Shown here piece after piece: positions 3,649 to 61,121 of a stretch of 64,000 nucleotides of DNA. Under the pieces are notes generated by a model that was not told the origin of the DNA, searched no databases, and saw only the letters and a list, made by a program, of their open reading frames with translations. The DNA comes from a virus. The translations under genes were made by a program, and so were the position numbers. How positions within the stretch are numbered: the first letter of the stretch is position 1; the number at the start of each line of letters is the position of its first letter. The stretch lies in the IMG/VR virus record IMGVR_UViG_3300044732_000704, positions 1 through 64,000 of that record; one strand, given 5' to 3'.

Positions 3649-3658
3649 TACGCTCTGT

Positions 3659-3743
3659 AACGCTCTACAATCAATTATATTAATTCCCTACACATTCGTA
3701 TTCCCTTCACGAGATAATCTACTGTAGCGCTTCCTAGAGCGTT
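3659..3743. repeat. Structured intergenic element, copy A
   Basis: Bounded by a perfect 9-bp inverted pair, AACGCTCTA (3659-3667) and TAGAGCGTT (3735-3743). It contains the shared block CTACAATCAATTAT. Related elements lie at 32876-32956, 36925-37052, 37634-37729 and 61023-61106. It fills the gap between lysozyme and holin. Here the shared blocks run opposite to the flanking genes. Confidence 0.6.
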
Positions 3744-3771
3744 ATATCGCTATTCAAATAGGAATCCTCTC

Positions 3772-15692: not shown

Positions 15693-16658
15693 TTAGCTTA
15701 CTACATTGAGATGCAAAGCATCCCGTTCTTCTTTAGTGAACAAGTTCTTACTGCTTCGTGTAGTTGCGCCACAATCTAAACAACGGTACTGCTGAAACTT
15801 ACTCTTAGACGTAAAAGCAAAACCATCTTCGACAACAGACTTACTACCACAACGACAAACATGCTCACCAATATCGCCAAACAGGTTCAGGTTTGGATGC
15901 GTCTTATCCCAAGGAGCTAACTTGATGTAAAGTTCTTCCAGTGACAACACATCATATTTGTTATATGTCTCGCATTCTTCCCAAGCCTCAATATTATCAT
16001 TAAGCATCTGTTTCCACAACTCAAACCCTGAGAACTTGTTGTGTTTCTGCTTCTTGTATTTGACGCACAATTTATCCGTCATCCACTCCAATTTGTTAGA
16101 AGTGAAACCAAACACAGCTTTAGCAATCTGTAATGTATCAATATGCTTGAATGGTCGTGGTGGCTGATAACCCTTCAGAATGAAACGGGCGTTTAGTTTC
16201 TTAGCATCGAACTTTTTAGAGTTCTGTCCAATCACTACATCAGCTTCATTAATGAGATTCCACATCATATCCAAAATAACACTGTCATCTTCTTGACTGA
16301 CCACACCACGTAAATCTCTATAGAAAATTTCAGACTCATCTGAACCTAACCACTTTGCGGCTGCTGACAGAATAAACCATTCACCTTCGATTTGATTAAG
16401 ACCTACGTTCTGTTGCCACAGCCCCCAAGTGTATGAGCGAAGCGGTGCAGTCTCAATATCAAGAAGCAACACCTTAGCACCTTTCGGCTGAGATAGCGCC
16501 TCAGAATCGTTCTCAGAGCGTTTTAAGCTACTAATGTATTCATTCACCTGCGACTTTCCACGACCCAACATCTTAGCAATCGTTCTGCCTGATTGTACAC
16601 CAGTAGCTAATAACTCGTCAACCTTACTGTGCCACTCTTTACGTTTAATATTAGTCAT
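15693..16658 (-). CDS. RNase H-fold 3'-5' exonuclease (DEDD type) with HTH and zinc ribbon
   Basis: 321 residues. N-terminal HTH (about 18-45, SGRTIAKMLGRGKSQVNEY). The DEDD exonuclease core starts with LLLDIETAP (D, E near 67-69) and ends with YNKYDVLSLEELY. A C-terminal zinc ribbon carries CRCG and CLDCG. The combination of a DNA-binding HTH, exonuclease and zinc ribbon suggests nucleic-acid processing during replication or repair; related proteins are annotated as YprB-like or phage exonucleases. Confidence 0.7.
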   Translation of the reverse strand: MTNIKRKEWHSKVDELLATGVQSGRTIAKMLGRGKSQVNEYISSLKRSENDSEALSQPKGAKVLLLDIETAPLRSYTWGLWQQNVGLNQIEGEWFILSAAAKWLGSDESEIFYRDLRGVVSQEDDSVILDMMWNLINEADVVIGQNSKKFDAKKLNARFILKGYQPPRPFKHIDTLQIAKAVFGFTSNKLEWMTDKLCVKYKKQKHNKFSGFELWKQMLNDNIEAWEECETYNKYDVLSLEELYIKLAPWDKTHPNLNLFGDIGEHVCRCGSKSVVEDGFAFTSKSKFQQYRCLDCGATTRSSKNLFTKEERDALHLNVVS

Positions 16659-17172: not shown

Positions 17173-17705
17173 TTATTCTCCTTCAGATATTCTCTGATTT
17201 GTTCTTTACGTTTTGCTGCATTTGAAGCGGGGGTAATTTCCTTTTCAAGAAGAAATTCACGATCCTTTTTTGCCTTACAGATTTCAATGATCGTCTTTTC
17301 AAGAATTGCCTCGTCGTATGTTATTCCTTGTCGTTCTGCATAACTCTTGGCCTTATGCGCTTCTGGGCTGACTAACTGCAAACTGTTTGGTGGCGGAATT
17401 AAGTGCTTGATAAAATCAAGAATGTCTGCTTCGTCATTCAGCGGTACATTACCAATTATGTGATCCACTTGAAGCTTACTTTTTCCTTCCCATTCCCCAG
17501 ACAACGCACAGTAAGCACCAGACTTAGCTCTGCCTGTGTAATCTTCAGGTGGTGGTGAGCAATTCAGATTCTTGAACGTTATCTTAATCGGAGATGTATT
17601 CCAAACAGCTTTACGTAATGAGCCACGTAAGTAGGTGTAGAAACTACTCTTTGTGGGCCATAATTCAGGATACCAAAGCCACGGCTCAAACTCATCATTC
17701 AACAT
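17169..17705 (-). CDS. HNH endonuclease
   Basis: 178 residues from ATG 17705 (AAGGAG upstream). HNH core: CALSGEW, then LQVDHIIGNVPL, then NSLQLVSPEAHKAKS, that is a DH pair and downstream N and H. The frame is open upstream to 17807, but that part lies in the neighbour. A role in recombination or DNA cleavage is likely. It sits next to the 5'-3' exonuclease, now separated from it by a mobile endonuclease. Confidence 0.75.
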   Translation of the reverse strand: MLNDEFEPWLWYPELWPTKSSFYTYLRGSLRKAVWNTSPIKITFKNLNCSPPPEDYTGRAKSGAYCALSGEWEGKSKLQVDHIIGNVPLNDEADILDFIKHLIPPPNSLQLVSPEAHKAKSYAERQGITYDEAILEKTIIEICKAKKDREFLLEKEITPASNAAKRKEQIREYLKENK

Positions 17706-18654
17706 TACGATACTCCTTGTGATGATAAATGTTAGTAAAATATTTAGTAAAACCCTCATATACGCGAGGTAGTTTAAAAGTAAAATTTGATAAGTCAATA
17801 TCAACATTAGTAAATGAAATTCTAGTTTTGTTCACTATACCTTCTACCAAAATATTGTTACCAAACAAGTAGTAAATAAAATCTTCGGTTGATATTCCAC
17901 ACTTCTTTACCAAAGCAAGAAAGTTAGGTGGTGACACAAATACATCTTTGATGTTATACTCCACGCCATCGAAAATTAAAAAATATTTCTTAGTTTTCAC
18001 TGGAAGCACTAACGCATCGGTCAAAGACATACCAAGTTTTGTTATCCTATCATGCAATATTGAAGGGTTAAGATTGTACTTCTCTGCCATAGCGGCCAGA
18101 TGTAATTCTTCCTCACCGTCATTTATAATATGTGGTTTACCTACTTGCCCCTCAGCAAAACGACGATTCACCACCTGCTCAGATCGGGTAGACCATTTGC
18201 AATTACTTTTGTTGTAATCACCATTGTTGTCTATTCTATCAATTTCTAACCCTTCGATAAAAGAATCTTCCATGTCTTCCAGAAAATTATAAAACCCTTT
18301 TGGGTTAGTAAAACCCCACTCATCGCATACCTTAATTCCCCTTCCACCATAATGCTTGTAATCTTTTCTATTTTCATTTAAACATCTTCTGTTCATAGAG
18401 TGCCAAACATCATAAAGTTTGTGTGAAGACAATCCGTGAGTTCTGTTGAGCTTCGACGCTTGTTCAGCCGCAAAACATCCACAGGAAGTGGAGTCGCCAT
18501 TAAGTAAGCTGTCTTGTCTAACTATCTTAGTCTCACCGCAAACACATAAGCATTTTGCCTTATAATACCTACCTAAACGTTGAACATCGGTAATTGTCCA
18601 CCTACCGTATGTTTCACCGATATTTATTTTAGGAGGTAACTGTTGTCTACCCAT
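17695..18654 (-). CDS. Free-standing HNH homing endonuclease
   Basis: 319 residues. N-terminal zinc-binding part (CLCVCG ... SCGC), then HGLSSHKLYDVWHSMNRR, GGRGIKVCDEW and the HNH core LEIDRIDNNGDYNKSNCKW, followed by a DNA-binding tail. It overlaps the exonuclease stop by eight bases and the next gene's start by eleven, so the last codons also supply that gene's ribosome site. This snug fit is typical of an intergenic homing endonuclease. Confidence 0.85.
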   Translation of the reverse strand: MGRQQLPPKINIGETYGRWTITDVQRLGRYYKAKCLCVCGETKIVRQDSLLNGDSTSCGCFAAEQASKLNRTHGLSSHKLYDVWHSMNRRCLNENRKDYKHYGGRGIKVCDEWGFTNPKGFYNFLEDMEDSFIEGLEIDRIDNNGDYNKSNCKWSTRSEQVVNRRFAEGQVGKPHIINDGEEELHLAAMAEKYNLNPSILHDRITKLGMSLTDALVLPVKTKKYFLIFDGVEYNIKDVFVSPPNFLALVKKCGISTEDFIYYLFGNNILVEGIVNKTRISFTNVDIDLSNFTFKLPRVYEGFTKYFTNIYHHKEYRNVE

Positions 18655-22925: not shown

Positions 22926-22953
22926 ATTATAGCACGTTATTCCGTTGTGTCAA
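22926..22953 (-). promoter_or_regulatory. Sigma70-type promoter with palindrome around the -10
   Basis: TTGACA (22948-22953), 16 bp, TATAAT (22926-22931). A 7-bp inverted repeat AACGTGC/GCACGTT (22915-22921 and 22932-22938) encloses the -10. It lies in the 3' end of the GIY-YIG gene, giving downstream genes expression independent of that insertion. Confidence 0.75.
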
Positions 22954-23977
22954 CATCTTCTTGTGAAGAATTTTCTATAAAAGTTTTAAGTCTCTCCGCT
23001 TCACTGTTTAAGAAATCAAAATCTGCGATTGACTCGTCGAACCGTTCTTTTATAACCTTAAACCCTTTAGCGTTAACTTCAGAAGTTTGGTGCCTACACA
23101 TAGCGGAAGATACCGCAGCAGCTATAACGCCCAGACCTCTATAAAGTACCACAAATTTATTACCATTGCAATAGACTTTATAAACAACCATCGCTTTTGT
23201 AGGAGAGCTTTCTTGCTCGAACAAACTCTTTTCTTGTTTAAACCTTGCGTTACCATAAGAAAACGGTAAATCCGATAAAAGGTGTTCATACTCAGCGGGT
23301 AATGATTCAAACCTCTCCCACTTATAACCCCTATAGGACTTTTTAGATCCGTTGCAAGCCGCATAAATATTTTGAAACTTAAAACCTTGATTGTTCTCAA
23401 TAACTTGATTAATACCTTGCCATAAAGTTATAGGTATATTCTCCATAGTTTTCTGTAGAAAGAAAGAACAATTAGCTGCACTTACTGCAACCTTCATCCC
23501 CTCTTTCACGCAAGGGTTATTCTTCCAGAAATCTGAAAAGAATTCAGATACTTTTTCGGGACTTCGTGTTCCATCTTCAAACTCCTTTAAAATTCTTTTT
23601 GAAATTTTATCTCGTGTTCTGGCATCTACGATAAGTCCGGTGCTTGAGTCTAAACGTAGGTTATACCCGCGCTTAGGGTCTAAAGCACAAAACTCTTGTA
23701 TCCAATACATTTCTCTTTCGGCAGCCAAAGATGGATCGCATACCTCTACAATGCTAAATGTAAAATTTTCTGGACTATGTTTGTTTATAGCGTTAAGAAA
23801 ATACTCATTTATCTTTCTAACATCTTGTTTCTTATACCCTGCTTTATAGTTGGCGTATCTTTTGCGGAAGTTTATAGTTTTCCCAATATAGACTTTGCCA
23901 TTGACGCCATTAACTATTTTATAAATACCTGAAGCGTTATTAAACTCCACCGGTATCTCCTTTTTAAAGAACTCCAT
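22937..23977 (-). CDS. GIY-YIG homing endonuclease
   Basis: 346 residues. GIY-YIG core at residues 17-100: GIYKIVNG ... GKVYIGKT, RKRYANYK (catalytic Arg) and AAEREMYWI (catalytic Glu). Then a helical linker and C-terminal DNA-binding modules of the type found in seg/NUMOD proteins (repeated AAVSAANC and AAVSSAMC helices). Placed directly after the DNA polymerase gene, a common target for intergenic endonucleases. Confidence 0.88.
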   Translation of the reverse strand: MEFFKKEIPVEFNNASGIYKIVNGVNGKVYIGKTINFRKRYANYKAGYKKQDVRKINEYFLNAINKHSPENFTFSIVEVCDPSLAAEREMYWIQEFCALDPKRGYNLRLDSSTGLIVDARTRDKISKRILKEFEDGTRSPEKVSEFFSDFWKNNPCVKEGMKVAVSAANCSFFLQKTMENIPITLWQGINQVIENNQGFKFQNIYAACNGSKKSYRGYKWERFESLPAEYEHLLSDLPFSYGNARFKQEKSLFEQESSPTKAMVVYKVYCNGNKFVVLYRGLGVIAAAVSSAMCRHQTSEVNAKGFKVIKERFDESIADFDFLNSEAERLKTFIENSSQEDVDTTE

Positions 23978-23985
23978 AGTACCTC

Positions 23986-26457
23986 TTAGTGGACATCATA
24001 ATAATTTTCACCCACTTTATAACCTCCATTGAGGTCAATAGCGAACTGTGGTGGTGTGTGGTTAGCAAAGTGTTCAGGAGTTTTTCTGTGATACTTGAAT
24101 ATCTGCTCAGCAGCCCAAGTGTAACAAGAACCTCCAAGTTTACCTGCCTGTTCCTCGTAACCTATTGAAACTTCTAATAAAGTTTCGTCATGCACGTCTA
24201 ATACACGTTTAATATGATTACGTAAACCTAACCTGTCTAACTCTTTACCTAAACGGATTGCTGCCATTTTCTGAGCTAAAGCTTCAAAACCCTGAACGAT
24301 GGTGTTAACACTCTTATGGCTACTGTTATTCCATAACCAATACCCAAAGGCTAATGGTAAATAGAAACCACCCTTGTACTTGAATTTATCTTCATACAAA
24401 GACAATGCTTTAATCGTGTTGTCAAGACCCATCTGTTTTAAGAACTGGTCTTTACGTTTAGCACCTTCTTTCTCAGGGATTCCAATAGTTTTAGCCACCT
24501 TCTTACCTGATGCACCGAAGATTACAGCGAAACTACCACCCTTGCTTGCCTTACGTTTCAAGGTTATTTTGTGGATTAACTCTTTATCTTGAGTCTCCAC
24601 AGCAGATTGCCAATCCACTTCTGACACCATGCCGAACATACGAGCGTTTACACAGTGTGCTGTCTGTCCTAAATATTTACCATCTTCTGAATACTCCATT
24701 CCAGAAGCTACGTTATTATAGTATTCATAGTTATTAGCATAATACGCTGCAATGGATAACTGTGCAGACTTCATATCAATACCTACCAATACTTTACCTT
24801 TAGGACAAATAACACTCTGTCTAATTTCTTTACCATACAAAGCGCTATCTGAAGGGGCATTAACCCAAATCCTCTGGGCACCACGGCCACTACGAGTAGC
24901 GAAATTATTAACTCCTGCTGGAATACGCCCATCCTCACGGACATAGCTTAACAATCCTTTATTCTCAGGGTCTTCCGGATTTTCTAAGAATCTACGTCTG
25001 TGTTGATACGTGTTATACTCCGCGATCTTTTTACCTAAACCTTCTGGGAGCTGGTCGTAATCATCGTCAGTTAATTTAGGACTACTAACCAAGTATTCGC
25101 CTTTCTTAACAAACTTAACTAACTGATGTTCCGGTAACGCCTTTTCAGGCCACCGTACCTCTACATCTTGTTCTGCTTTAATCCAATTGTCATAAGCATC
25201 TTTCCGTATGTTCCAAGAATCCGCATCCTTCCAACCAAGTTTAATTAAAAACGCTTTCACTATATCGGATTGTGTCATGGTAGACGGTTCAATCTCGATA
25301 CGTGTAAATGGCCCAGAAATAATATGCGTATCTGTAGGTTCTACTCCAAACCAATTGCATGTATGTGAGTTAATAACTTCAGTTACCACTTCTTTCTTTT
25401 CAATATCCCAGTCTTTGTTCTTAGTCTCTGGGTAACTTGCTTTAATCCAATCAGTTAAATCTTTCTTCTTATTGAATACTGGTGTAGCGCCGTAAGATAA
25501 ATTAAACCCGTAGTATTGGTTTACCTTCTCCTTAGAAGTAAAGTTAATAGTAGGTTTATAATAAGGTTTATCTACTACTGTAACCACTTCACCATCTTTC
25601 TTCCTTTGAGATGTAGATTCTACAATCTTACTTGAATCAAAACCAAACAACTCTGCCATCTCTTTACGAGATACTTTTGTTGTAGCACCTTTAATCGTAG
25701 GTGGTAGTTGTGGTTCAATCTCCGCACGTAATACTTCAATCTTAATATCCAAGTCATCAATGCAGCGTTTGATATGGTCAATATCTACCATAACACCTGT
25801 GGTTTCTTGTAGAAAACATTCATGTGCGTACAACGCTTCTACTTTAAGAGCGTAGGTAAAATCAATACCGTAGGTGTCTCGTAAGTAGTTACGTTCCTTC
25901 TCTAACATCAAATATGTTTGCGCTTGGATCTTACAGTCTTCAATAACCCTGTGTAATTTGAAAGCATCCATTGTAGACCAATCAGTGATCTCTGGTTTAT
26001 TAATCCCGCACTTAATACCCCAAGCTTTTAACCCATGTGGAGATTTTGCACCTTTAGGGCAAGGACGTTCAAACCACTGTAGTTTACTCTGGATAAACGT
26101 ATCATGGTAACTATCAAAAGGTATTGTATTCTCCGGCCAAATCTTATCAATAACTGGTCTGTCATATGTATGACAGTTATGGATAATTAGCAAGCTACCG
26201 TTATTTGCTGCATTACTCCAAAATGCAATACCTTCATCCAATGTACCTGAACGTTTAGGTATTGTGTACTCTTTATTGTCGTAAGGATCTACAACAACTA
26301 CATTATCAAACTCAGGGTTATTATGAAAGAGTATCACTTTACCTGTGTCAATATCAACAGAACACAGACAGTGAATATCCTCTTTAGAATTTACTACATC
26401 ATAGAAACCCTTTGCTTCTATATCACTGGCTAATTTTAAATTGCGATACTCTAACAT
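23986..26457 (-). CDS. DNA polymerase, family A, T7-like
   Basis: 823 residues. Proofreading domain begins ASDIEAKGF (D12, E14). Polymerase motif A is VGIDMKSAQLS (Asp561), motif B KASKGGSFAVIFGASG, and motif C VHDETLLEV (Asp757). The DIEA start and HDE motif match T7 gp5 rather than bacterial Pol I; it is about 120 residues longer than T7 gp5. It replicates the genome with the gp4-like helicase-primase encoded next to it. Confidence 0.93.
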   Translation of the reverse strand: MLEYRNLKLASDIEAKGFYDVVNSKEDIHCLCSVDIDTGKVILFHNNPEFDNVVVVDPYDNKEYTIPKRSGTLDEGIAFWSNAANNGSLLIIHNCHTYDRPVIDKIWPENTIPFDSYHDTFIQSKLQWFERPCPKGAKSPHGLKAWGIKCGINKPEITDWSTMDAFKLHRVIEDCKIQAQTYLMLEKERNYLRDTYGIDFTYALKVEALYAHECFLQETTGVMVDIDHIKRCIDDLDIKIEVLRAEIEPQLPPTIKGATTKVSRKEMAELFGFDSSKIVESTSQRKKDGEVVTVVDKPYYKPTINFTSKEKVNQYYGFNLSYGATPVFNKKKDLTDWIKASYPETKNKDWDIEKKEVVTEVINSHTCNWFGVEPTDTHIISGPFTRIEIEPSTMTQSDIVKAFLIKLGWKDADSWNIRKDAYDNWIKAEQDVEVRWPEKALPEHQLVKFVKKGEYLVSSPKLTDDDYDQLPEGLGKKIAEYNTYQHRRRFLENPEDPENKGLLSYVREDGRIPAGVNNFATRSGRGAQRIWVNAPSDSALYGKEIRQSVICPKGKVLVGIDMKSAQLSIAAYYANNYEYYNNVASGMEYSEDGKYLGQTAHCVNARMFGMVSEVDWQSAVETQDKELIHKITLKRKASKGGSFAVIFGASGKKVAKTIGIPEKEGAKRKDQFLKQMGLDNTIKALSLYEDKFKYKGGFYLPLAFGYWLWNNSSHKSVNTIVQGFEALAQKMAAIRLGKELDRLGLRNHIKRVLDVHDETLLEVSIGYEEQAGKLGGSCYTWAAEQIFKYHRKTPEHFANHTPPQFAIDLNGGYKVGENYYDVH

Positions 26458-26465
26458 AAATCTCC

Positions 26466-28346
26466 TTAGAAAAGATTGGTTACGTCTATTTCATCATCTT
26501 CACCAGCGGGATAATAATTATCCGTAAAGTCTGGTGGCTGTTGATTAAAGAATGTATTATAATTGTGCATTGTGTGTGTTTGCAAGTCATAATACCAACT
26601 TCCAACTACACCCGTTACCCCTGTCCAACGACACTTACCTAATGTTACTTTAGTTGTGTTTTGAACTATAGGATCTTCTGCGTATTTTGAACGATTTAAG
26701 AAAATATTAGCCCCCGCACTTTTTGTTACGAGCGACAAGCCCGACACGTCATCTTCCGTAAGCTCTCGTTCAATACGCTTACCGTGTTTATCTGTAGATA
26801 CATTACCTTTTCTTACGTGACAAACACAAGAGAATGTAATACCGGATTTCAGCATGGTCTTCATCCATTTGATAAATGCTGTCTGTTCATCCCATGTAGA
26901 AGCATCAAACAAATCGTTAAGCGGGTCTATAACGATCAACTGACAGCCATGTTTCTTAATCAGCCGTTCAATTTGTTTCTTAACATTGTCAAGACTGCCT
27001 TCCCGATCATCTAACAACGCAAAACGTTCTTCTCCGAACTCGTTCATCTTTAAATGATTACGTGCTTCTACTACATGAGGTTGTCTGATAAACTCTACAG
27101 CTTTTTCTGGGGAATCAATCAAGTTAATTTTATACCCAACCTCACGGCTCAGCATTGCAATCATATACTGTGCAGCAGTTAACTCTAGACTAACGATCCC
27201 AACCTTATAGGGTGAAGTATAAATCCATTCACGAATGGCTTCGTTAACCGTAGTAGTTTTACCAGCGCCTGTCCCAGCGATCCAGTTTACCCAATAACCT
27301 AATGGGATTCCACCTGAGAATGCTTTTTGTAAATCAGACATAAACTCTGGTAACTTAATCTTAGGTCTGGATAACTCCGATTCCAACCCATCATCTGCAT
27401 CAATAGAGGAAATAATACCGTCATCGAGATAAGGTTTTGCACTGAAGAAGTCTCGCACAAACTGCTCTTGCTTTCCAGATTCTAACATCTTGTTAGGGTC
27501 TTTCATAGTCCACAATGCAATTTTTACTTTATCTGCTGGCAATACTTTGGCAATCTCTGCCATAGCTTCTTTACCTACATCATCGTTATCTAAACCTAAG
27601 ATAATATTCTCGAATAAATTACAGAAGTCATACTGAGCTGCAATCTGCTTTACTGCACTACCTTCCCCCGTAGTAGGGCTAACTACCGCGATAGGTTCAA
27701 AGTCTTTCTGCCCCCGTTTAATTTGATTGTCACGTAGCATCTGGAATGCGGCTACCTTATCTTCCTCTCCGCCGCAAATAAGTAAATACTTACCACCAGC
27801 TTTAAACTTTACCTGACCAGATAACTCAGACTTAATTCCTGTACGACCTTTGTTCAACATACCGAATTTCTTTGGGAAGATTCTGGATTTATACCCAGTA
27901 ACTTTGCCTTCGGAAGTTTCAGGATAGAACCGGACTACGGGATTACCTTCATTATCAAGTTTAGTTAAATGCCCGTAGAATTGGTTATACTCATCTTTTA
28001 TACCACGAATACCATTACCAATGTAACCAATTTCTTTAATGAAGTTGATGACTTCATCTTTAGTCATAGGTTCTTTTTTAGGCTTAGCGGTAACTTTGTT
28101 TGCGTTTACTACAACTCCACCTTCGATCCCCAAATCTCCAGCAATAGATGAGTTACCAATATCCGTAGATGAATAATATTGGCTACATGACCAACAAAAC
28201 CCGTCATACGTGACTACATCGTTTTCATCTGTGTGTTGATAAATCGCTAACCCGTCACTGCTATGACAGTCATGTTTATTAGAACACTCACTACCTATGC
28301 AGTGGAAATGTCCTACAAAATCCCCACTATCTTTACTCAACTGCAA
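26466..28346 (-). CDS. Primase-helicase, T7 gp4-like
   Basis: 626 residues. N-terminal zinc-binding domain with C-x4-C and CWSC pairs (residues 17-55). TOPRIM primase core (KYLLICGGEEDKVAAF ... ILGLDNDDVGKEA). C-terminal RecA-type helicase with Walker A GTGAGKTTT (Lys363), LIVIDPLND as Walker B and CVCHVRK. It makes primers and unwinds DNA ahead of the adjacent polymerase. It overlaps the small upstream gene by ten bases. Confidence 0.93.
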   Translation of the reverse strand: MQLSKDSGDFVGHFHCIGSECSNKHDCHSSDGLAIYQHTDENDVVTYDGFCWSCSQYYSSTDIGNSSIAGDLGIEGGVVVNANKVTAKPKKEPMTKDEVINFIKEIGYIGNGIRGIKDEYNQFYGHLTKLDNEGNPVVRFYPETSEGKVTGYKSRIFPKKFGMLNKGRTGIKSELSGQVKFKAGGKYLLICGGEEDKVAAFQMLRDNQIKRGQKDFEPIAVVSPTTGEGSAVKQIAAQYDFCNLFENIILGLDNDDVGKEAMAEIAKVLPADKVKIALWTMKDPNKMLESGKQEQFVRDFFSAKPYLDDGIISSIDADDGLESELSRPKIKLPEFMSDLQKAFSGGIPLGYWVNWIAGTGAGKTTTVNEAIREWIYTSPYKVGIVSLELTAAQYMIAMLSREVGYKINLIDSPEKAVEFIRQPHVVEARNHLKMNEFGEERFALLDDREGSLDNVKKQIERLIKKHGCQLIVIDPLNDLFDASTWDEQTAFIKWMKTMLKSGITFSCVCHVRKGNVSTDKHGKRIERELTEDDVSGLSLVTKSAGANIFLNRSKYAEDPIVQNTTKVTLGKCRWTGVTGVVGSWYYDLQTHTMHNYNTFFNQQPPDFTDNYYPAGEDDEIDVTNLF

Positions 28347-29737: not shown

Positions 29738-29758
29738 TTCTCCTCTAATCAAGGAGAA
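29738..29758 (-). other. Right-end hairpin of the TnpB element (possible omega-RNA part)
   Basis: TTCTCC / GGAGAA with a nine-base loop spanning the tnpB stop, followed by GGGTGTCA. IS200/IS605-type right ends and the 3' part of omega-RNA are found in this place. Confidence 0.5.
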
Positions 29759-30797
29759 TTCCTTCTTCAAGACGGCGGTGCCCCGCCGCAGCAATGTTCT
29801 TAGACGCATTCACATCCCTATCGTGTTCTGCTCCGCACTCAGAACAAACCCATTGCCGTATTCCAAGACCTGCTCTACCTTTCGGACTACTGTCTGGGAT
29901 AATCCCGCAGCACGAACAAGTCTGGGTGGAGTATGCTTCATTAATAACTTCAAAAATCACACCTGCGTTAGCGCATTTATATTCCAATGTAGATTTAATC
30001 TGTCCCCAAGAAGCGTCTAAAACAGATTTTGCCATTTTAGTTTTAATAAGCTTCCGAGAACTAATGTTACCAACAAAGATTGCAGCACTGGAATCTACCA
30101 AACTGCGTGTAAACTTATGAATAGCGTCCTTACGTCTATTCTTTATCTTTAAGTGAATCGACCTCACTCTGTCTTTCTTATTAGCTCTTTGCGCTAATTT
30201 GAGCTTAGATTCTAACTCACGATACCAACCATTGTCAAGCTTTATTCCTGTTGATGTCACAGCAGCATCTTTACAACCTAAATCTATACCGATTAACTGA
30301 GTTCCCTTAGATTTTACAGCCTCGCATTCAACAGCAATGTTAAGATACCACCGACCTTTAGAATCTTCGTTAAATGAACCTGATTTAAGTTTGTATTGCG
30401 ATATATTATGACAATCCCAAAAGCTAAACAAAACACTATTAAATCTAATTTTACTATCAACCAACTTAATTGTTTGTGGTTGAAAAGGAATCCAACCTAA
30501 CGATCTACCACTTCCTTTGGTTTTCCTCCAACGTAGTCGACGTTTCTTAAATTGCCTACGTCGGGTGACATACTCTTTACTTACTTCTTGTATTGTTTGA
30601 GCAGGAATCCCAAGCTCTTTACTTGAACCTGCTGTGTATTTGTTTATATCAAATTCGGATAAAAACACCCCACGCTCTTTGATTGAGCGTGAGCTAAGTT
30701 CATTGATATAGTTCCAGACAAAATTCACATTAGCTGCAACCTTATTCAAATGTTTAATGTGTTTATCTTTCACCCTGAACTTTAATGTTTTTATCAA
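29745..30797 (-). CDS. tnpB: TnpB-like RNA-guided nuclease (IS200/IS605 OrfB family)
   Basis: 350 residues from TTG at 30797, seven bases after GGAG. The frame opens earlier (30839), but that part overlaps the upstream gene. N-terminal TLKFRVKDKH and NFVWNYINELS, RuvC-I GIDLGCKD (Asp172), zinc finger CSCCG ... CSECG and RuvC-III DRDVNASKN (Asp328). At the usual RuvC-II Glu position the sequence is FVGNISS, with no Glu. It is therefore either a rearranged active site or nuclease-dead. No tnpA nearby, so it is an orphan element. Confidence 0.85.
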   Translation of the reverse strand: MIKTLKFRVKDKHIKHLNKVAANVNFVWNYINELSSRSIKERGVFLSEFDINKYTAGSSKELGIPAQTIQEVSKEYVTRRRQFKKRRLRWRKTKGSGRSLGWIPFQPQTIKLVDSKIRFNSVLFSFWDCHNISQYKLKSGSFNEDSKGRWYLNIAVECEAVKSKGTQLIGIDLGCKDAAVTSTGIKLDNGWYRELESKLKLAQRANKKDRVRSIHLKIKNRRKDAIHKFTRSLVDSSAAIFVGNISSRKLIKTKMAKSVLDASWGQIKSTLEYKCANAGVIFEVINEAYSTQTCSCCGIIPDSSPKGRAGLGIRQWVCSECGAEHDRDVNASKNIAAAGHRRLEEGILLD

Positions 30798-30801
30798 TTT
30801 G

Positions 30802-31017
30802 TTACTCCTCCACTTGAATAAAATGTTCATCAACAACACTCTTATACATGTAATGACAAGATTGTTGATTGTTTTTAGGTGTATACAGCTCAGGGACGTA
30901 GGCAGATTCTTTTCCTACGTAGAAATCATACACATCTCCAGCCTTAAACGCTGGAATATTCCCACTTTCCTCAGATTCATTGAGCATCCAGAAATCTTCA
31001 ATACATTTAAATTTCAT
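30802..31017 (-). CDS. Hypothetical protein
   Basis: 71 residues, acidic and aromatic, unrecognised. Overlaps denV by four bases. Its last codons carry the ribosome site used by tnpB, which probably belonged to the gene that the element replaced. Confidence 0.5.
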   Translation of the reverse strand: MKFKCIEDFWMLNESEESGNIPAFKAGDVYDFYVGKESAYVPELYTPKNNQQSCHYMYKSVVDEHFIQVEE

Positions 31018-31418: not shown

Positions 31419-32237
31419 TTATTTAATCCAATTATTTACTATTTCTTCGTAGAAAGGTTGCCAAGTTACCTCATCGAAGAAATCATCTATTTCAGTGAGT
31501 ATAACAAAGTTTTCGTGATGTTTCAATCCAGCATCAATCTTTACATCATTCGGATATACATTTAAAAGTGAGATAGGTTTTATTTCCACTATTGTATGGT
31601 AATTAGGTAAATAAAAATCCGGAAAGTAATGGTGAATTCTCCCATCAGCGGCCATGTAAGGCACTGCAAATTCTTTATTCGCTGCTGATATTACCTCAAT
31701 ATTAAACTTTTTACAAAACAACAAGAATTTTTCCTCATAAGATGACCTGAAGTAGATAGCGTCAACCCTGCCGCTCTTGTGCCAAGATTTTATATCAACT
31801 GCAACGTGAATACTCCTATCTAAATCTGGGTCAGAGTAACGTCTTAGCATAGTCTCTCTTAACCAATCTTTGGTCTTTTGAGTATGTTTATTAGTGCCAT
31901 TTATTTTCCTGTTTTCGGCAATCTTCTTACTATGTTCTGCACTTCTTGGGTCTTTTGGTCTATTTTTAGCAGCTAAAGAAATAGCTTCTTTTACTTCAAG
32001 CAATTGTGCTACATTTTCTACACCATACCTCTCAAGCATAGTGGATCTCAACTTTGCTTGTTTTGCTTTCTGGTCTGTATTCCTTATCCTTTTCTCTATT
32101 GTCTCTTTTGATTGTTTTCTACCAAGACAGGGGTTAGGTTTTGATTTTCTATATAGTGATCTGCACTCATCCGAACAAAACCTAGAGCGTGGTTTAAAAT
32201 GCTCAGTGCCACACCATTCACAGAAATACTTTTTCAT
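31419..32237 (-). CDS. Homing endonuclease, Vsr/EDxHD-like nuclease with zinc finger
   Basis: 272 residues. N-terminal zinc finger (CEWCG ... CSDECRSLY), NUMOD3-like basic repeats (GRKQSKETIEKR), and a C-terminal Vsr-type nuclease: FRSSYEEKFLLFC, HHYFPDFYLP, IVEIKP. This order fits the PD-(D/E)XK/Vsr family of phage homing endonucleases (I-Bth0305I type). It lies between a truncated gene and the damaged denV, implying that its insertion caused both. Confidence 0.78.
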   Translation of the reverse strand: MKKYFCEWCGTEHFKPRSRFCSDECRSLYRKSKPNPCLGRKQSKETIEKRIRNTDQKAKQAKLRSTMLERYGVENVAQLLEVKEAISLAAKNRPKDPRSAEHSKKIAENRKINGTNKHTQKTKDWLRETMLRRYSDPDLDRSIHVAVDIKSWHKSGRVDAIYFRSSYEEKFLLFCKKFNIEVISAANKEFAVPYMAADGRIHHYFPDFYLPNYHTIVEIKPISLLNVYPNDVKIDAGLKHHENFVILTEIDDFFDEVTWQPFYEEIVNNWIK

Positions 32238-32823: not shown

Positions 32824-32875
32824 TTAAAACCTCCTACAACAGCCTATCGGCTGGCAGCAAACATTGCTACAATCG

Positions 32876-32956
32876 TCTACAATCAATTATCTGTGTTCAC
32901 CCACATCAACACACCCTTTCACCTAAATAATCGCTTAGAATGAACCCTAGAGCGTT
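32876..32956. repeat. Structured intergenic element, copy B
   Basis: Shared blocks CTACAATCAATTAT (32877-32890), AATAATCGCTTA and CCTAGAGCGTT (32946-32956); the outer arms pair imperfectly here. On the - strand it lies in the leader of 32458-32823. Confidence 0.6.
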
Positions 32957-32990
32957 TTAGAGAGGAATAGGGTGCTTGTCGGAATGTTTA

Positions 32991-33338: not shown

Positions 33339-33563
33339 TTATAAATTTGGATCAGTTAAAGCAGCTAGTGTTCGATCTAGCTCATAAGCTGTAATCAACT
33401 CACACAGTTTAATTCTAGGGCAATAACTGTAATAAGCTACAGTGAACCCCGTCTGTCTAGACATGAGGGATACACAGTGTTGTACATGGTCTAAATCCAT
33501 GTCAGCAATCAGTAGCTTTCTCCCATCACGAGTGTTCCAGTATGTGTTTTGTGGGGTGTTCAT
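33339..33563 (-). CDS. Hypothetical protein
   Basis: 74 residues (MNTPQNTYWNTRDGRKLLIADMD at the start). Overlaps the mini-polymerase gene by four bases, so it may be a partner. Unrecognised. Confidence 0.5.
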   Translation of the reverse strand: MNTPQNTYWNTRDGRKLLIADMDLDHVQHCVSLMSRQTGFTVAYYSYCPRIKLCELITAYELDRTLAALTDPNL

Positions 33564-34858
33564 AGCTCAGCACCTTTCGTTCTAACAACACAATTATTCC
33601 CACCAACAACCACTTCGTAAGCACGTTCCATAATCTTCACTGCCTTATCCTTGTATTTCTCCTGAACAATGATACTATCATGTATTGGGATCATGATCTG
33701 GTCGTCAGACAACACACGTTCAATAATATAATCCATCATCGTAGATTCTATAGCCATGAGGTCTAATGCACTATCACTAAAGAAATACGTGTTCACATAA
33801 TCATTTCTTTCAAGTAATGCTTCCACAACACGTCTTGCTACAGGGAAGTCAGGCCATTGACCTTCGTCCTTCGCTTGGTCAATCTGTTCTTTCAACCACT
33901 TCTGGTTCATTTCTTTGATTAGAGCAAACGTAGCACCTTCTTCGTCTTTACAGTTGAATAAACACATCAGACCAACCTTAGCCAATGAACGTACCACAGA
34001 AGGTTTATAACCTGATATAGTGATTCCATACGGGTCAAAGGACTTATCCAGTGTAACACCAACTAAATCAGCGGCAATCCGAGGAAACAATTGTCCATAA
34101 TCGCACTCAACTGTAGGTTCTCCGTTTATTTCCAGTTTAATACGTTGCTCACGATTAATCATATCACTTAATCCTGCACCAGACATATACACCCTCCCAC
34201 CTTCGTTAAAAGAACCATTGTTGTAAATCTTCTTAACTTGCACAGAATACTTATTATCCTCGATTCTAAACTCAGAGTCAACAAGTTTATAGTTAAATTT
34301 AGTTAAGAGTCTTACTAACTCTTTCTGTCTTTCCGGTAAACGTTTAGCTAACACATTACCTTTAGAATCTCTTACCTCAAGAACTGATTCATTTACAATA
34401 TCAATCTTATTCACAATAGAGTCTATCTCACTAATCCAGTGATCAGGGATCTCAATGTAGCTTGTCTCCCATGTCTTAGCTACCACTTTCTTTATAACAC
34501 CATCCCATTCCCAAGAGGTAACACCACCTTTGTAGAGGTTAAAATCATCCTGAGATGTAATGAAGTTAATCAGCACCTTCATATACGTGTAGCTAACCTT
34601 TCTACCTGTGTTGTTACCATTGTAGATAGCCGGTAATGAGTATACTGTCTGATCTAGTGCAACAGAGAACTTAGTCTGTTTCCTCTTAACTGCGTTGGCT
34701 ATGTTCAACACAAAGCACTTACACACCTTGTCTATTAAATCAAGCTTGTGTTTAGTAATCTTTATACCACTGAACTGGGTTAAGTATTTAACTAAACCAT
34801 TCTTTATCTTATCACTAAATGGTAGTAATTTCTTGTTAATCTTGTAGTCTAATATCAT
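33560..34858 (-). CDS. Stand-alone family A-like polymerase palm protein
   Basis: 432 residues. The C-terminal half carries polymerase landmarks in order: motif A-like VECDYGQLFPRIA (Asp253), motif B-like RSLAKVGLMCLFN (Arg290, Lys294) and motif C-like PIHDSIIV (His393, Asp394). HDS is the motif C form of single-subunit RNA polymerases, whereas DNA polymerases of the family usually have HDE. No exonuclease domain. Proteins with the GGR-x-Y ... R-x-x-I-xx-NG-x-x-x-V-E-D-Y core occur in phages and mobile elements without known function. It could be a primer-making or template-independent polymerase, or a degenerate one. Confidence 0.6.
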   Translation of the reverse strand: MILDYKINKKLLPFSDKIKNGLVKYLTQFSGIKITKHKLDLIDKVCKCFVLNIANAVKRKQTKFSVALDQTVYSLPAIYNGNNTGRKVSYTYMKVLINFITSQDDFNLYKGGVTSWEWDGVIKKVVAKTWETSYIEIPDHWISEIDSIVNKIDIVNESVLEVRDSKGNVLAKRLPERQKELVRLLTKFNYKLVDSEFRIEDNKYSVQVKKIYNNGSFNEGGRVYMSGAGLSDMINREQRIKLEINGEPTVECDYGQLFPRIAADLVGVTLDKSFDPYGITISGYKPSVVRSLAKVGLMCLFNCKDEEGATFALIKEMNQKWLKEQIDQAKDEGQWPDFPVARRVVEALLERNDYVNTYFFSDSALDLMAIESTMMDYIIERVLSDDQIMIPIHDSIIVQEKYKDKAVKIMERAYEVVVGGNNCVVRTKGAEL

Positions 34859-34891: not shown

Positions 34892-34975
34892 AAAGGCTTC
34901 GCCTTTCAAGCTACAGCTTCTCTGTATAAGTGAAAACTTAATAAAAATACCCCTACAAGCCTTGTCCTGTAAGGG
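34892..34975 (-). terminator. Cluster of hairpins upstream of the mini-polymerase gene
   Basis: First transcribed: CCCTTACA/TGTAGGGG (34950-34975) followed by TATTTTTATT; then TACAG/CTGTA; then AAAGGC-GAA-GCCTTT (34892-34906) followed by GTCTTTTT. At least two look like terminators, so the mini-polymerase gene has either an attenuated or a separate leader. Confidence 0.6.
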
Positions 34976-34995
34976 TTTTATACATAGTTTAGCTT

Positions 34996-36925: not shown

Positions 36926-37052
36926 ACGCTCTAGGACTGTTCTTCCAGAACAGGCAGACAAAGCCATGCTTTGCTGTATTCATTCTAAGACGTTTTAACA
37001 GCTAAGCTATACGTTGGCTTAGGATAACATAAATAATCGCTCATAGAGCGTT
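36925..37052. repeat. Structured intergenic element, copy D
   Basis: AACGCTCTA (36925-36933) and TAGAGCGTT (37044-37052) pair perfectly. Between them are three hairpins: CTGTTCT-tcc-AGAACAG, CAAAGC-cat-GCTTTG and CTAAGC...GCTTAG, giving a cloverleaf-like fold. The 3' arm runs into the GGAGG of the next gene. Confidence 0.65.
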
Positions 37053-37065
37053 GTAGGAGGAATAA

Positions 37066-37634: not shown

Positions 37635-37729
37635 ACGCAATAGGAAGCGTTCTAGGCCACGATAATTTATCCCAATACATTCGGATAGGATTAAGGAGAA
37701 AGTGGCTTAGAATTAATTGTAGAGCGTTA
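37634..37729. repeat. Structured intergenic element, copy E
   Basis: AACGC at 37634 and GTAGAGCGTT at 37720-37729. Inside, TCTAGGCCAC pairs with GTGGCTTAGA and TATCC with GGATA. The TTAATTGTAGAGCGTT end matches copies A, B and C. Confidence 0.55.
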
Positions 37730-37758
37730 TAGAGCATGTTTGGATGAGGAGAGGGATC

Positions 37759-54702: not shown

Positions 54703-54986
54703 TATTTATTCCTCTCACTAATTAAATCTGCAACATATACCCCACCTAATGCACCAACACTTGCACCAATAGCTAAGATGAAGATGGGCCATGTAGACGA
54801 TGTAACAATAGCTGTTCCCACAGCAGTAGAATATACTGTCAGTTCAAGAACAGCAATTAGATAACTGATAAATGGAATTGCTTTGTAATTGCGTAATGCG
54901 ATTGTTCTGGATTGCATCGTTTTCAGAGAGGTAGAGACTGCGAACGCTGCCGTTGTAGCAATTAAACTAAAACTCAAGATGCTCAT
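54702..54986 (-). CDS. Three-span membrane protein
   Basis: 94 residues with hydrophobic segments at about 3-18, 38-58 and 64-86. One-base overlap with the next gene; its start lies inside the endonuclease gene's end. Unrecognised. Confidence 0.5.
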   Translation of the reverse strand: MSILSFSLIATTAAFAVSTSLKTMQSRTIALRNYKAIPFISYLIAVLELTVYSTAVGTAIVTSSTWPIFILAIGASVGALGGVYVADLISERNK

Positions 54987-55593
54987 CTCCTGTAATTATA
55001 AACCTTTTTCGTAAGGCATCCGCCACCCTAGGGTCAGTCACCTTTTCCGCCAACAGTTGACTATATTCGTGTTTTCTAACTTTCCAAGCAAGATGCGCTT
55101 CGAGAGCTGTGTCAAACGCCCCTATAAATTTTTTAGATTGATTGTCATCTAGCAGTTTAGGGCGTCTACATACAGCGTTAAATCTTCCATTTCTTTTATC
55201 ATACTCTACCCCTGTGTGTTTTCCGTTTCTTTTGTAGGAAAACCAAAGATTAATACTCTGATCCACAAAACAACACGTCTCTGGTGAGTATATCTTATTG
55301 TTCATCACTAAAATATCCTTGTCTAGTTGAAGTCTCTCCCAATCTTTTTCTACTTGGATATCTAAAACCCATTTTTTAAAATTAGAGAAAATCAACCACT
55401 CATCACATACAGTGGTTCCGACATAGGTCGGCTGTCTATCCTGATAATATTTTCCATAACTTCTACTGAGCATGTCTTTCCACTTTGAATACACTGGGCA
55501 AACCCACACTACATGTCTCTTACCTTCAATATATTCATGTTTATAATTTTGACCAACATCGTTTACCCCTACCCCACATACAGTCTTAGTCAT
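54967..55593 (-). CDS. AP2/HNH-type homing endonuclease
   Basis: 208 residues. Family marks: TVCGVGVND at the start, CPVYSKWKDMLSRSY, TTVCDEWLIFSNFKKW, QLDKDILVMNNKIYSPETC, then an AP2-like DNA-binding part (GVEYDKRNGRFNAV ... KFIGAFDTALEAHLAW). Same family as 56454-57263. It overlaps both flanking genes, as intergenic homing endonucleases do. Confidence 0.8.
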   Translation of the reverse strand: MTKTVCGVGVNDVGQNYKHEYIEGKRHVVWVCPVYSKWKDMLSRSYGKYYQDRQPTYVGTTVCDEWLIFSNFKKWVLDIQVEKDWERLQLDKDILVMNNKIYSPETCCFVDQSINLWFSYKRNGKHTGVEYDKRNGRFNAVCRRPKLLDDNQSKKFIGAFDTALEAHLAWKVRKHEYSQLLAEKVTDPRVADALRKRFIITGDEHLEF

Positions 55594-60980: not shown

Positions 60981-61022
60981 TACCTCAATCCTCCTGTTAA
61001 AATCAATTATAACCGCCCTATA

Positions 61023-61106
61023 AACGCCTACAATCAATTATATTCATAAAGTCATACATACGTAGCCATAAATAAAATAATCGCTTATAATCGTTCCTAG
61101 AGCGTT
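61023..61106. repeat. Structured intergenic element, copy C
   Basis: AACGCCTACAATCAATTATA (61023-61042) to CCTAGAGCGTT (61096-61106), with AATAATCGCTTATAA between. Outer arms pair with one bulged base. On the - strand it lies in the leader of 60675-60980. Confidence 0.6.
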
Positions 61107-61121
61107 TAAATGTGGATTACG

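Follow-up and report, generated by a model that had tools for sequence, protein, structure and literature searches.

The gene reported here has two described systems close to it. The first is divPolA2, the name given by Yutin et al. (2024) to an additional and strongly diverged PolA that was first found in barbaviruses (PMC11348598). The published description gives divPolA2 a palm that looks active and an N-terminal domain of unassigned kind, with neither an exonuclease nor a recognisable thumb; the authors suggested that it acts in DNA repair or RNA synthesis (PMC11348598). Our literature search found the name only in that paper and its preprint, and found no experiment on any divPolA2 member.

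The second system is the Transposon-Virus polymerases (TV-Pol) of Iyer et al. (2008), which were described in neighbourhoods containing a D5 helicase, integrase, resolvase or transposase and whose list includes many Rhodobacterales (PMC2579912). Biochemical work is available for CCPol of SCCmec, classed as TV-Pol, which primes and extends DNA together with its partner MP (PMC7581432) and, in complex with its SSB partner, synthesises DNA primers de novo (PMC7581432, PMC10061031).

Here we analysed the first 64,000 nucleotides (the window) of a 93,434-base phage record, in which a 432-aa protein had been predicted from the letters alone to be a polymerase. We find that this protein is divPolA2, a new member of the published kind and not new in kind. 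The resemblance extends over the full length: the protein has a PolA palm with motifs A to C, lacks a 3′-5′ exonuclease and carries an unrelated, non-homologous N-terminal domain in place of the thumb (PMC11348598). As in its relatives, it is encoded in a variable neighbourhood as a second polymerase, here in addition to the regular PolA at 23986-26457. The phage nonetheless differs from those of the relatives in three ways: its regular polymerase is a T7-like PolA whereas theirs is PolB, it has one copy of the gene where many of them have two or three, and its sugar-gate residue is Phe (Trp in Barba) instead of His.

The polymerase genes of the phage

The divPolA2 gene is intact and present in a single copy in the record (Table 1); a search of the same genome for a paralog found none. 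An identical protein (100%) is encoded by two other IMG/VR contigs. The residue numbers given in the original prediction are exact (Asp253, Arg290-x3-Lys294 and His393-Asp394-Ser395), and the full T7-like DNA polymerase that it reported in the same phage is real, with HDE at 756 as its motif C.

No family match was found for the 74-aa ORF that overlaps the end of the gene, and no D5 helicase, integrase, resolvase or transposase gene adjoins divPolA2. The closest gene of these kinds encodes a transposase-family protein and lies 2.7 kb off, at 29745-30839 (PHROG_506, E 1.8e-73).

The window also holds a separate 'DNA polymerase exonuclease subunit' gene at 15693-16658 (PHROG_403, E 1.6e-104; RNase_H_2), besides the gene for the 823-aa polymerase. 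Homing-endonuclease-like genes of the GIY-YIG and HNH types are found at 22937-23977, 17695-18654, 31419-32237 and 54967-55593, one of them directly adjoining the phage polymerase gene.

Table 1. Features of the divPolA2 locus, the replication genes and the intergenic repeats, in window positions.
Feature	Position	Strand	Details
divPolA2 coding sequence	33560-34858	minus	432 aa, ATG start, ORF intact
N-terminal domain	34409-34858	minus	residues 1-150; AlphaFold2 secondary structure
Beta hairpin before motif A	34181-34240	minus	GGR with Arg222; model strands 207-212 and 222-226
Motif A	34073-34117	minus	residues 248-262 (PTVECDYGQLFPRIA); catalytic Asp253, sugar-gate position Phe258
Motif B / O-helix	33953-33991	minus	residues 290-302 (RSLAKVGLMCLFN); R290, K294
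Motif C	33668-33688	minus	residues 391-397 (PIHDSII); catalytic Asp394
74-aa ORF	33339-33563	minus	ATG overlaps divPolA2 stop (ATGA)
Terminator-like hairpin	34949-34976	minus	upstream of divPolA2; gene start about 90 bases after the hairpin
T7-like family A DNA polymerase	23986-26457	minus	823 aa; PHROG_17 E 1e-88, PF00476 E 2e-12
T7 gp4-like primase-helicase	26466-28346	minus	Toprim and DnaB_C
AACGCTCTA ... TAGAGCGTT repeats	3653-3749, 32867-32962, 37044-37058, 37720-37734, 61018-61112		

Relatives in phages and bacteria

The 432-aa protein matches PHROG_4756 (E 1.8e-80). It is 43.9% identical to the Barba19A protein over 97% of its length (E 5e-111), and more than 100 other barbaviruses also match. 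In a tree of 47 sequences, the query is the sister of Barba with a support of 100/100. Using tblastn, we matched about 245 phage records, of which 115 are Rheinheimera barbaviruses and about 100 are Vibrio phages; the remainder are Aeromonas, Pseudoalteromonas and Shewanella phages together with single Klebsiella and Pseudomonas phages. Among the annotated matches listed, the homologs are called 'hypothetical protein' throughout. The published family is the second polymerase of many Vibrio phages, including the cholera phage ICP1.

For the 432-aa protein, Pfam gave no match at E 10 (neither PF00476 nor PF00940), NCBIfam gave none, a PDB sequence search with the single protein returned a chance match only, and several single-protein scans for relatives found few or none. 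Searching the PDB with a family profile (A1) gave the Pol I of Aquifex as the sole match (E 0.47), with motifs A and C in register.

Vibrio, Aeromonas and Pseudoalteromonas phages carry two or three diverged copies of divPolA2. We compared 21 loci and found no gene that recurs beside divPolA2 in more than 4 of them, nor any conserved partner such as an SSB or helicase. The divPolA2 gene behaves as an accessory gene and not as a core replication gene. In four of these loci (L005, L006, L012 and L016), from related phages including ICP1, divPolA2 is preceded, at a distance of about 380-413 bases, by a small gene of the HTH antitoxin-like type; no toxin is visible.

The family extends into bacteria. 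The tblastn search with the phage protein also reached Thioclava and Paracoccus plasmid genes (E 4e-9 and 1e-4), and the reverse search with the Thioclava atlantica protein returned 274 phage records, with E 5e-16 among the matches listed. The family profile matched in 39 of 298 genomes of the bacterial family to which Thioclava belongs, and PF00589 phage-type integrases were found near six of the ten bacterial copies examined. Phage divPolA2 and the bacterial proteins are joined into one family by sequence comparison; in the unrooted 47-sequence tree the phage and bacterial members occupy two well separated sides (99/99). Our literature search found no paper joining the two groups.

In two Thioclava species the bacterial relative adjoins a restriction-modification-like pair (L010, 5992-11579; L030, 5593-11594), consisting of a site-specific DNA methyltransferase and a DEAD/DEAH helicase.

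Predicted fold and conserved residues

The original prediction had called for a structure model and had read the protein as a stand-alone, extra family A polymerase. Both the model and the conserved motifs bear this out. An AlphaFold2 model built from 13 sequences reached a pLDDT of 87.1 and a pTM of 0.78, and in a Foldseek search of the PDB all 50 matches listed are of the DNA polymerase I family (best E 2.3e-6, probability 1.00), including the Plasmodium apicoplast Pol, Aquifex, Bst, Klenow, Taq and variants. Whole-chain TM-scores are low (~0.3) because the domain arrangement differs from that of Pol I. The best match in BFVD is the Barba31A protein, which is named 'DNA polymerase' in UniProt (E 5e-45). 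These matches of a confident model support the reading of a polymerase palm; the fold assignment is thus supported by structure prediction and conserved motifs, and not by curated sequence models. An hhalign profile comparison with Pol A and T7 RNA polymerase was weak and was discarded, being uninformative because the control of Pol A against RNA polymerase failed too.

The protein shares with DNA polymerase I the overall palm and fingers fold and differs from it in having no exonuclease, no typical thumb and no PF00476 match. Two absences had been anticipated and are seen here: no exonuclease domain is recognised, and the stretch linking the N-terminal domain to the palm, where Pol I has a thumb, is modelled as only a single long helix (176-193). 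Where TV-Pol has a bi-helical antiparallel coiled-coil thumb, the model shows this helix and an N-terminal domain with two long helices.

We next aligned 47 members of the family (27 phage and 20 bacterial proteins). D253, D394, R239 and Y277 are invariant in all 47, while R222, R290 and K294 are each kept in 46 and the fingers residue D275 in 40. Conservation across the family thus covers both metal-binding aspartates as well as R-x3-K in the fingers, and the motifs are no chance occurrence. Since the catalytic residues are kept while the proteins have diverged to 15-30% identity, selection for catalysis has been strong. The hairpin carrying Arg222 is expected to contact the template strand.

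These residues are also those of TV-Pol: two metal-binding palm aspartates, a beta hairpin with a conserved Arg before motif A, and a fingers Asp with R-x3-K. Further likenesses are the minimal palm and fingers, the lack of a nuclease domain, a length in the range of 400-600 aa with an often added N-terminal domain, and the position of the alphaproteobacterial relatives near integrases. Unlike TV-Pol genes, the phage gene has no D5 helicase, integrase or resolvase beside it, and the phage that carries it also encodes a primase and a polymerase. On size, residues and setting we call the family TV-Pol-like and regard it as probably TV-Pol. The record of the TV-Pol-bearing phage Ma-LMM01 gave no match to the combined profile (A5) at E 10, in a search that had no positive control.

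The substrate-selecting positions are less uniform. The position five residues after the motif A aspartate corresponds to Glu710 in E. coli Pol I and Gly542 in T7 RNA polymerase, and the position eight residues after the motif B lysine to Tyr766 in Pol I and Tyr639 in T7 RNA polymerase. At the first of these, residue 258, we found His in 36 members, Glu in 6, Asn in 3, Phe in the query and Trp in Barba, and never Gly (n = 47). The second, Asn302 here, is Asn in 43 of the 47. Compared with Pol I, the phage protein thus has Phe for Glu710, Asn for Tyr766 and HDS for HDE; both dNTP-sugar contacts being replaced, its preference for dNTPs is a guess. In family B polymerases, ribonucleotides are kept out by the aromatic residue of motif A, D-x-x-S-L-Y-P-S-I. 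In its spacing and in its bulk at 258, the phage sequence D-Y-G-Q-L-F-P-R-I recalls this motif by analogy.

The N-terminal domain is modelled as two long helices followed by strand-helix-helix-strand-wing-strand-helix, and residues 1-160 modelled alone kept a fair confidence (pLDDT 82). With the combined phage and bacterial profile (A5), the best PDB match is the PadR-type winged-helix protein 1xma (E 0.008); the bacterial N-termini alone gave a MarR regulator at E 0.29, and the N-terminus of one bacterial member gave PadR at E 0.15. In Foldseek the isolated domain had no match at E 0.001, so the winged helix is put forward as a hypothesis. Small-subunit ribosomal chains, in our reading the winged-helix protein eS10, had the best probability (0.35) and TM-score. 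A winged helix is compatible with the order of the secondary-structure elements, and the domain may be one; it is probably DNA-binding.

Possible roles, promoters and intergenic repeats

We think it probable, with some reserve, that divPolA2 is a family A polymerase that stands alone, lacks an exonuclease and serves accessory DNA synthesis. It would be the phage branch of a family to which TV-Pol-like proteins from mobile elements of bacterial chromosomes also belong. Priming or gap-filling and repair synthesis of DNA are favoured, and RNA synthesis is possible but less likely. The protein would be catalytically active, judging by its residues, and would select dNTPs through its bulky sugar-gate residue. 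On phage DNA it would assist the replicative T7-like polymerase, either making or extending primers, or filling gaps and repairing. With thumb and exonuclease missing, it would fall to the N-terminal domain to hold the template.

The TV-Pol-like link makes an accessory role in copying DNA or making primers more likely than one in copying RNA. It also supplies a concrete candidate activity, primer-independent DNA synthesis, next to the earlier suggestion of repair or an RNA polymerase. Like CCPol-MP and other PolA-SSB primases, divPolA2 is a small, accessory family A polymerase with a shortened thumb and no complete exonuclease (PMC7581432, PMC10061031). It differs from CCPol-MP in that no SSB-like partner gene adjoins it and in that its N-terminal domain is not an exonuclease remnant. 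Against the accessory-synthesis reading stand the lack of a conserved SSB or helicase partner, the conjectural dNTP preference, the uninformative profile comparison and the negative search of Ma-LMM01; nor is a priming role required, since a Toprim primase-helicase and a replicative polymerase are already encoded by the phage.

A bolder version, which we consider rather doubtful, is that divPolA2 and the integrase-linked bacterial proteins are self-guided primase-polymerases, minimal family A palms with a winged helix of their own instead of thumb and exonuclease, which could start DNA strands at chosen sites with neither primer nor SSB. The family provides a widespread natural set for studying what a family A polymerase minimally needs in order to work or to start strands.

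The protein could instead be a DNA-dependent RNA polymerase, a minimal relative of the T7 and mitochondrial enzymes that transcribes a subset of phage genes or makes RNA primers. It shares with them the family A palm and the HDS of motif C, and the original prediction took HDS to be RNA-polymerase-like. This part of the prediction is not supported. Across the family, no motif C is more frequent than HDS (19 of 27 phage and 17 of 20 bacterial members, 36/47), H393 being kept in 45/47 and S395 in 36/47, and other members have HDA, HDD, YDE or FDE. As HDS is common throughout the family, with A, D or E replacing S elsewhere, it is on its own no mark of an RNA polymerase. The residue at 258 is moreover a bulky Phe, and Phe, Trp, His, Glu or Asn in the family but never the Gly of T7 RNA polymerase, while Asn302 replaces its Tyr639. 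Other observations agree better with RNA synthesis: most members have not kept the Glu710 of Pol I, and the authors of divPolA2, who reported DALI matches to mitochondrial RNA polymerase (z ~12) and N4 RNA polymerase (~9), keep the option open (PMC11348598). In our own data, all the Foldseek matches listed are DNA polymerases, PF00940 is not matched, no promoter-binding N-terminal domain is recognised, and the protein is half the size of the T7 and mitochondrial enzymes. Shewanella phage KASIA has a divPolA2 relative in addition to its own annotated RNA polymerase.

The promoters of the phage bear indirectly on the same question. We searched 61 upstream regions of the whole 93,434-base record, where the best motif is the ribosome-binding site. 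Once this was removed, the search gave AAAATAnCTnTTGACAA, a sigma70 -35 hexamer preceded by a conserved A-rich block, in about 23-29 regions, with a log-likelihood of 157 compared to 79-106 for shuffles (width 29). For example, it occurs at 88361, 64172, 62422 and 9253 of the whole record. A strict scan gave 16 sites, at which the -10 hexamer has 3.75 matches versus 2.8 at random. The detectable promoter class is host sigma70-like. No second, phage-specific class emerged from the 61 regions, although a class of few sites could escape such a search. With a main motif of the sigma70 -35 type and no T7-like promoter class found among these regions, there is no evident set of promoters that needs a second RNA polymerase. 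We consider the RNA polymerase reading unlikely.

Quite improbable, in our judgement, is an active polymerase used for interference, whose short DNA or RNA product, or template-independent extension, would act in phage-phage or phage-host conflict. The accessory distribution, variable neighbourhood, rapid divergence and one to three paralogs per genome (partly PMC11348598) are in keeping with such a use, as are the HTH antitoxin-like genes just upstream in four homologous loci. A PADLOC search, however, gave only weak and implausible matches, no effector partner is conserved, and the family retains the catalytic and template-binding Arg residues that template-dependent enzymes have. That the protein merely binds DNA through a retained polymerase fold, its activity lost, is very improbable: the replaced Pol I sugar contacts and a plausible DNA-binding N-terminal domain would suit it, but the catalytic aspartates, R290 and K294 have outlasted the divergence of the family.

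Finally, AACGCTCTA ... TAGAGCGTT units spaced by about 80 bases make up a set of intergenic repeats in the window. The record shows no excess of these repeats outside the window, and their single-strand folding is not remarkable. TAGAGCGTTNTAGAG has 18 matches compared to 5.3 expected, a number reached in 0 of 100 shuffles, and the repeats appear to keep one orientation with respect to the genome, irrespective of the genes beside them.
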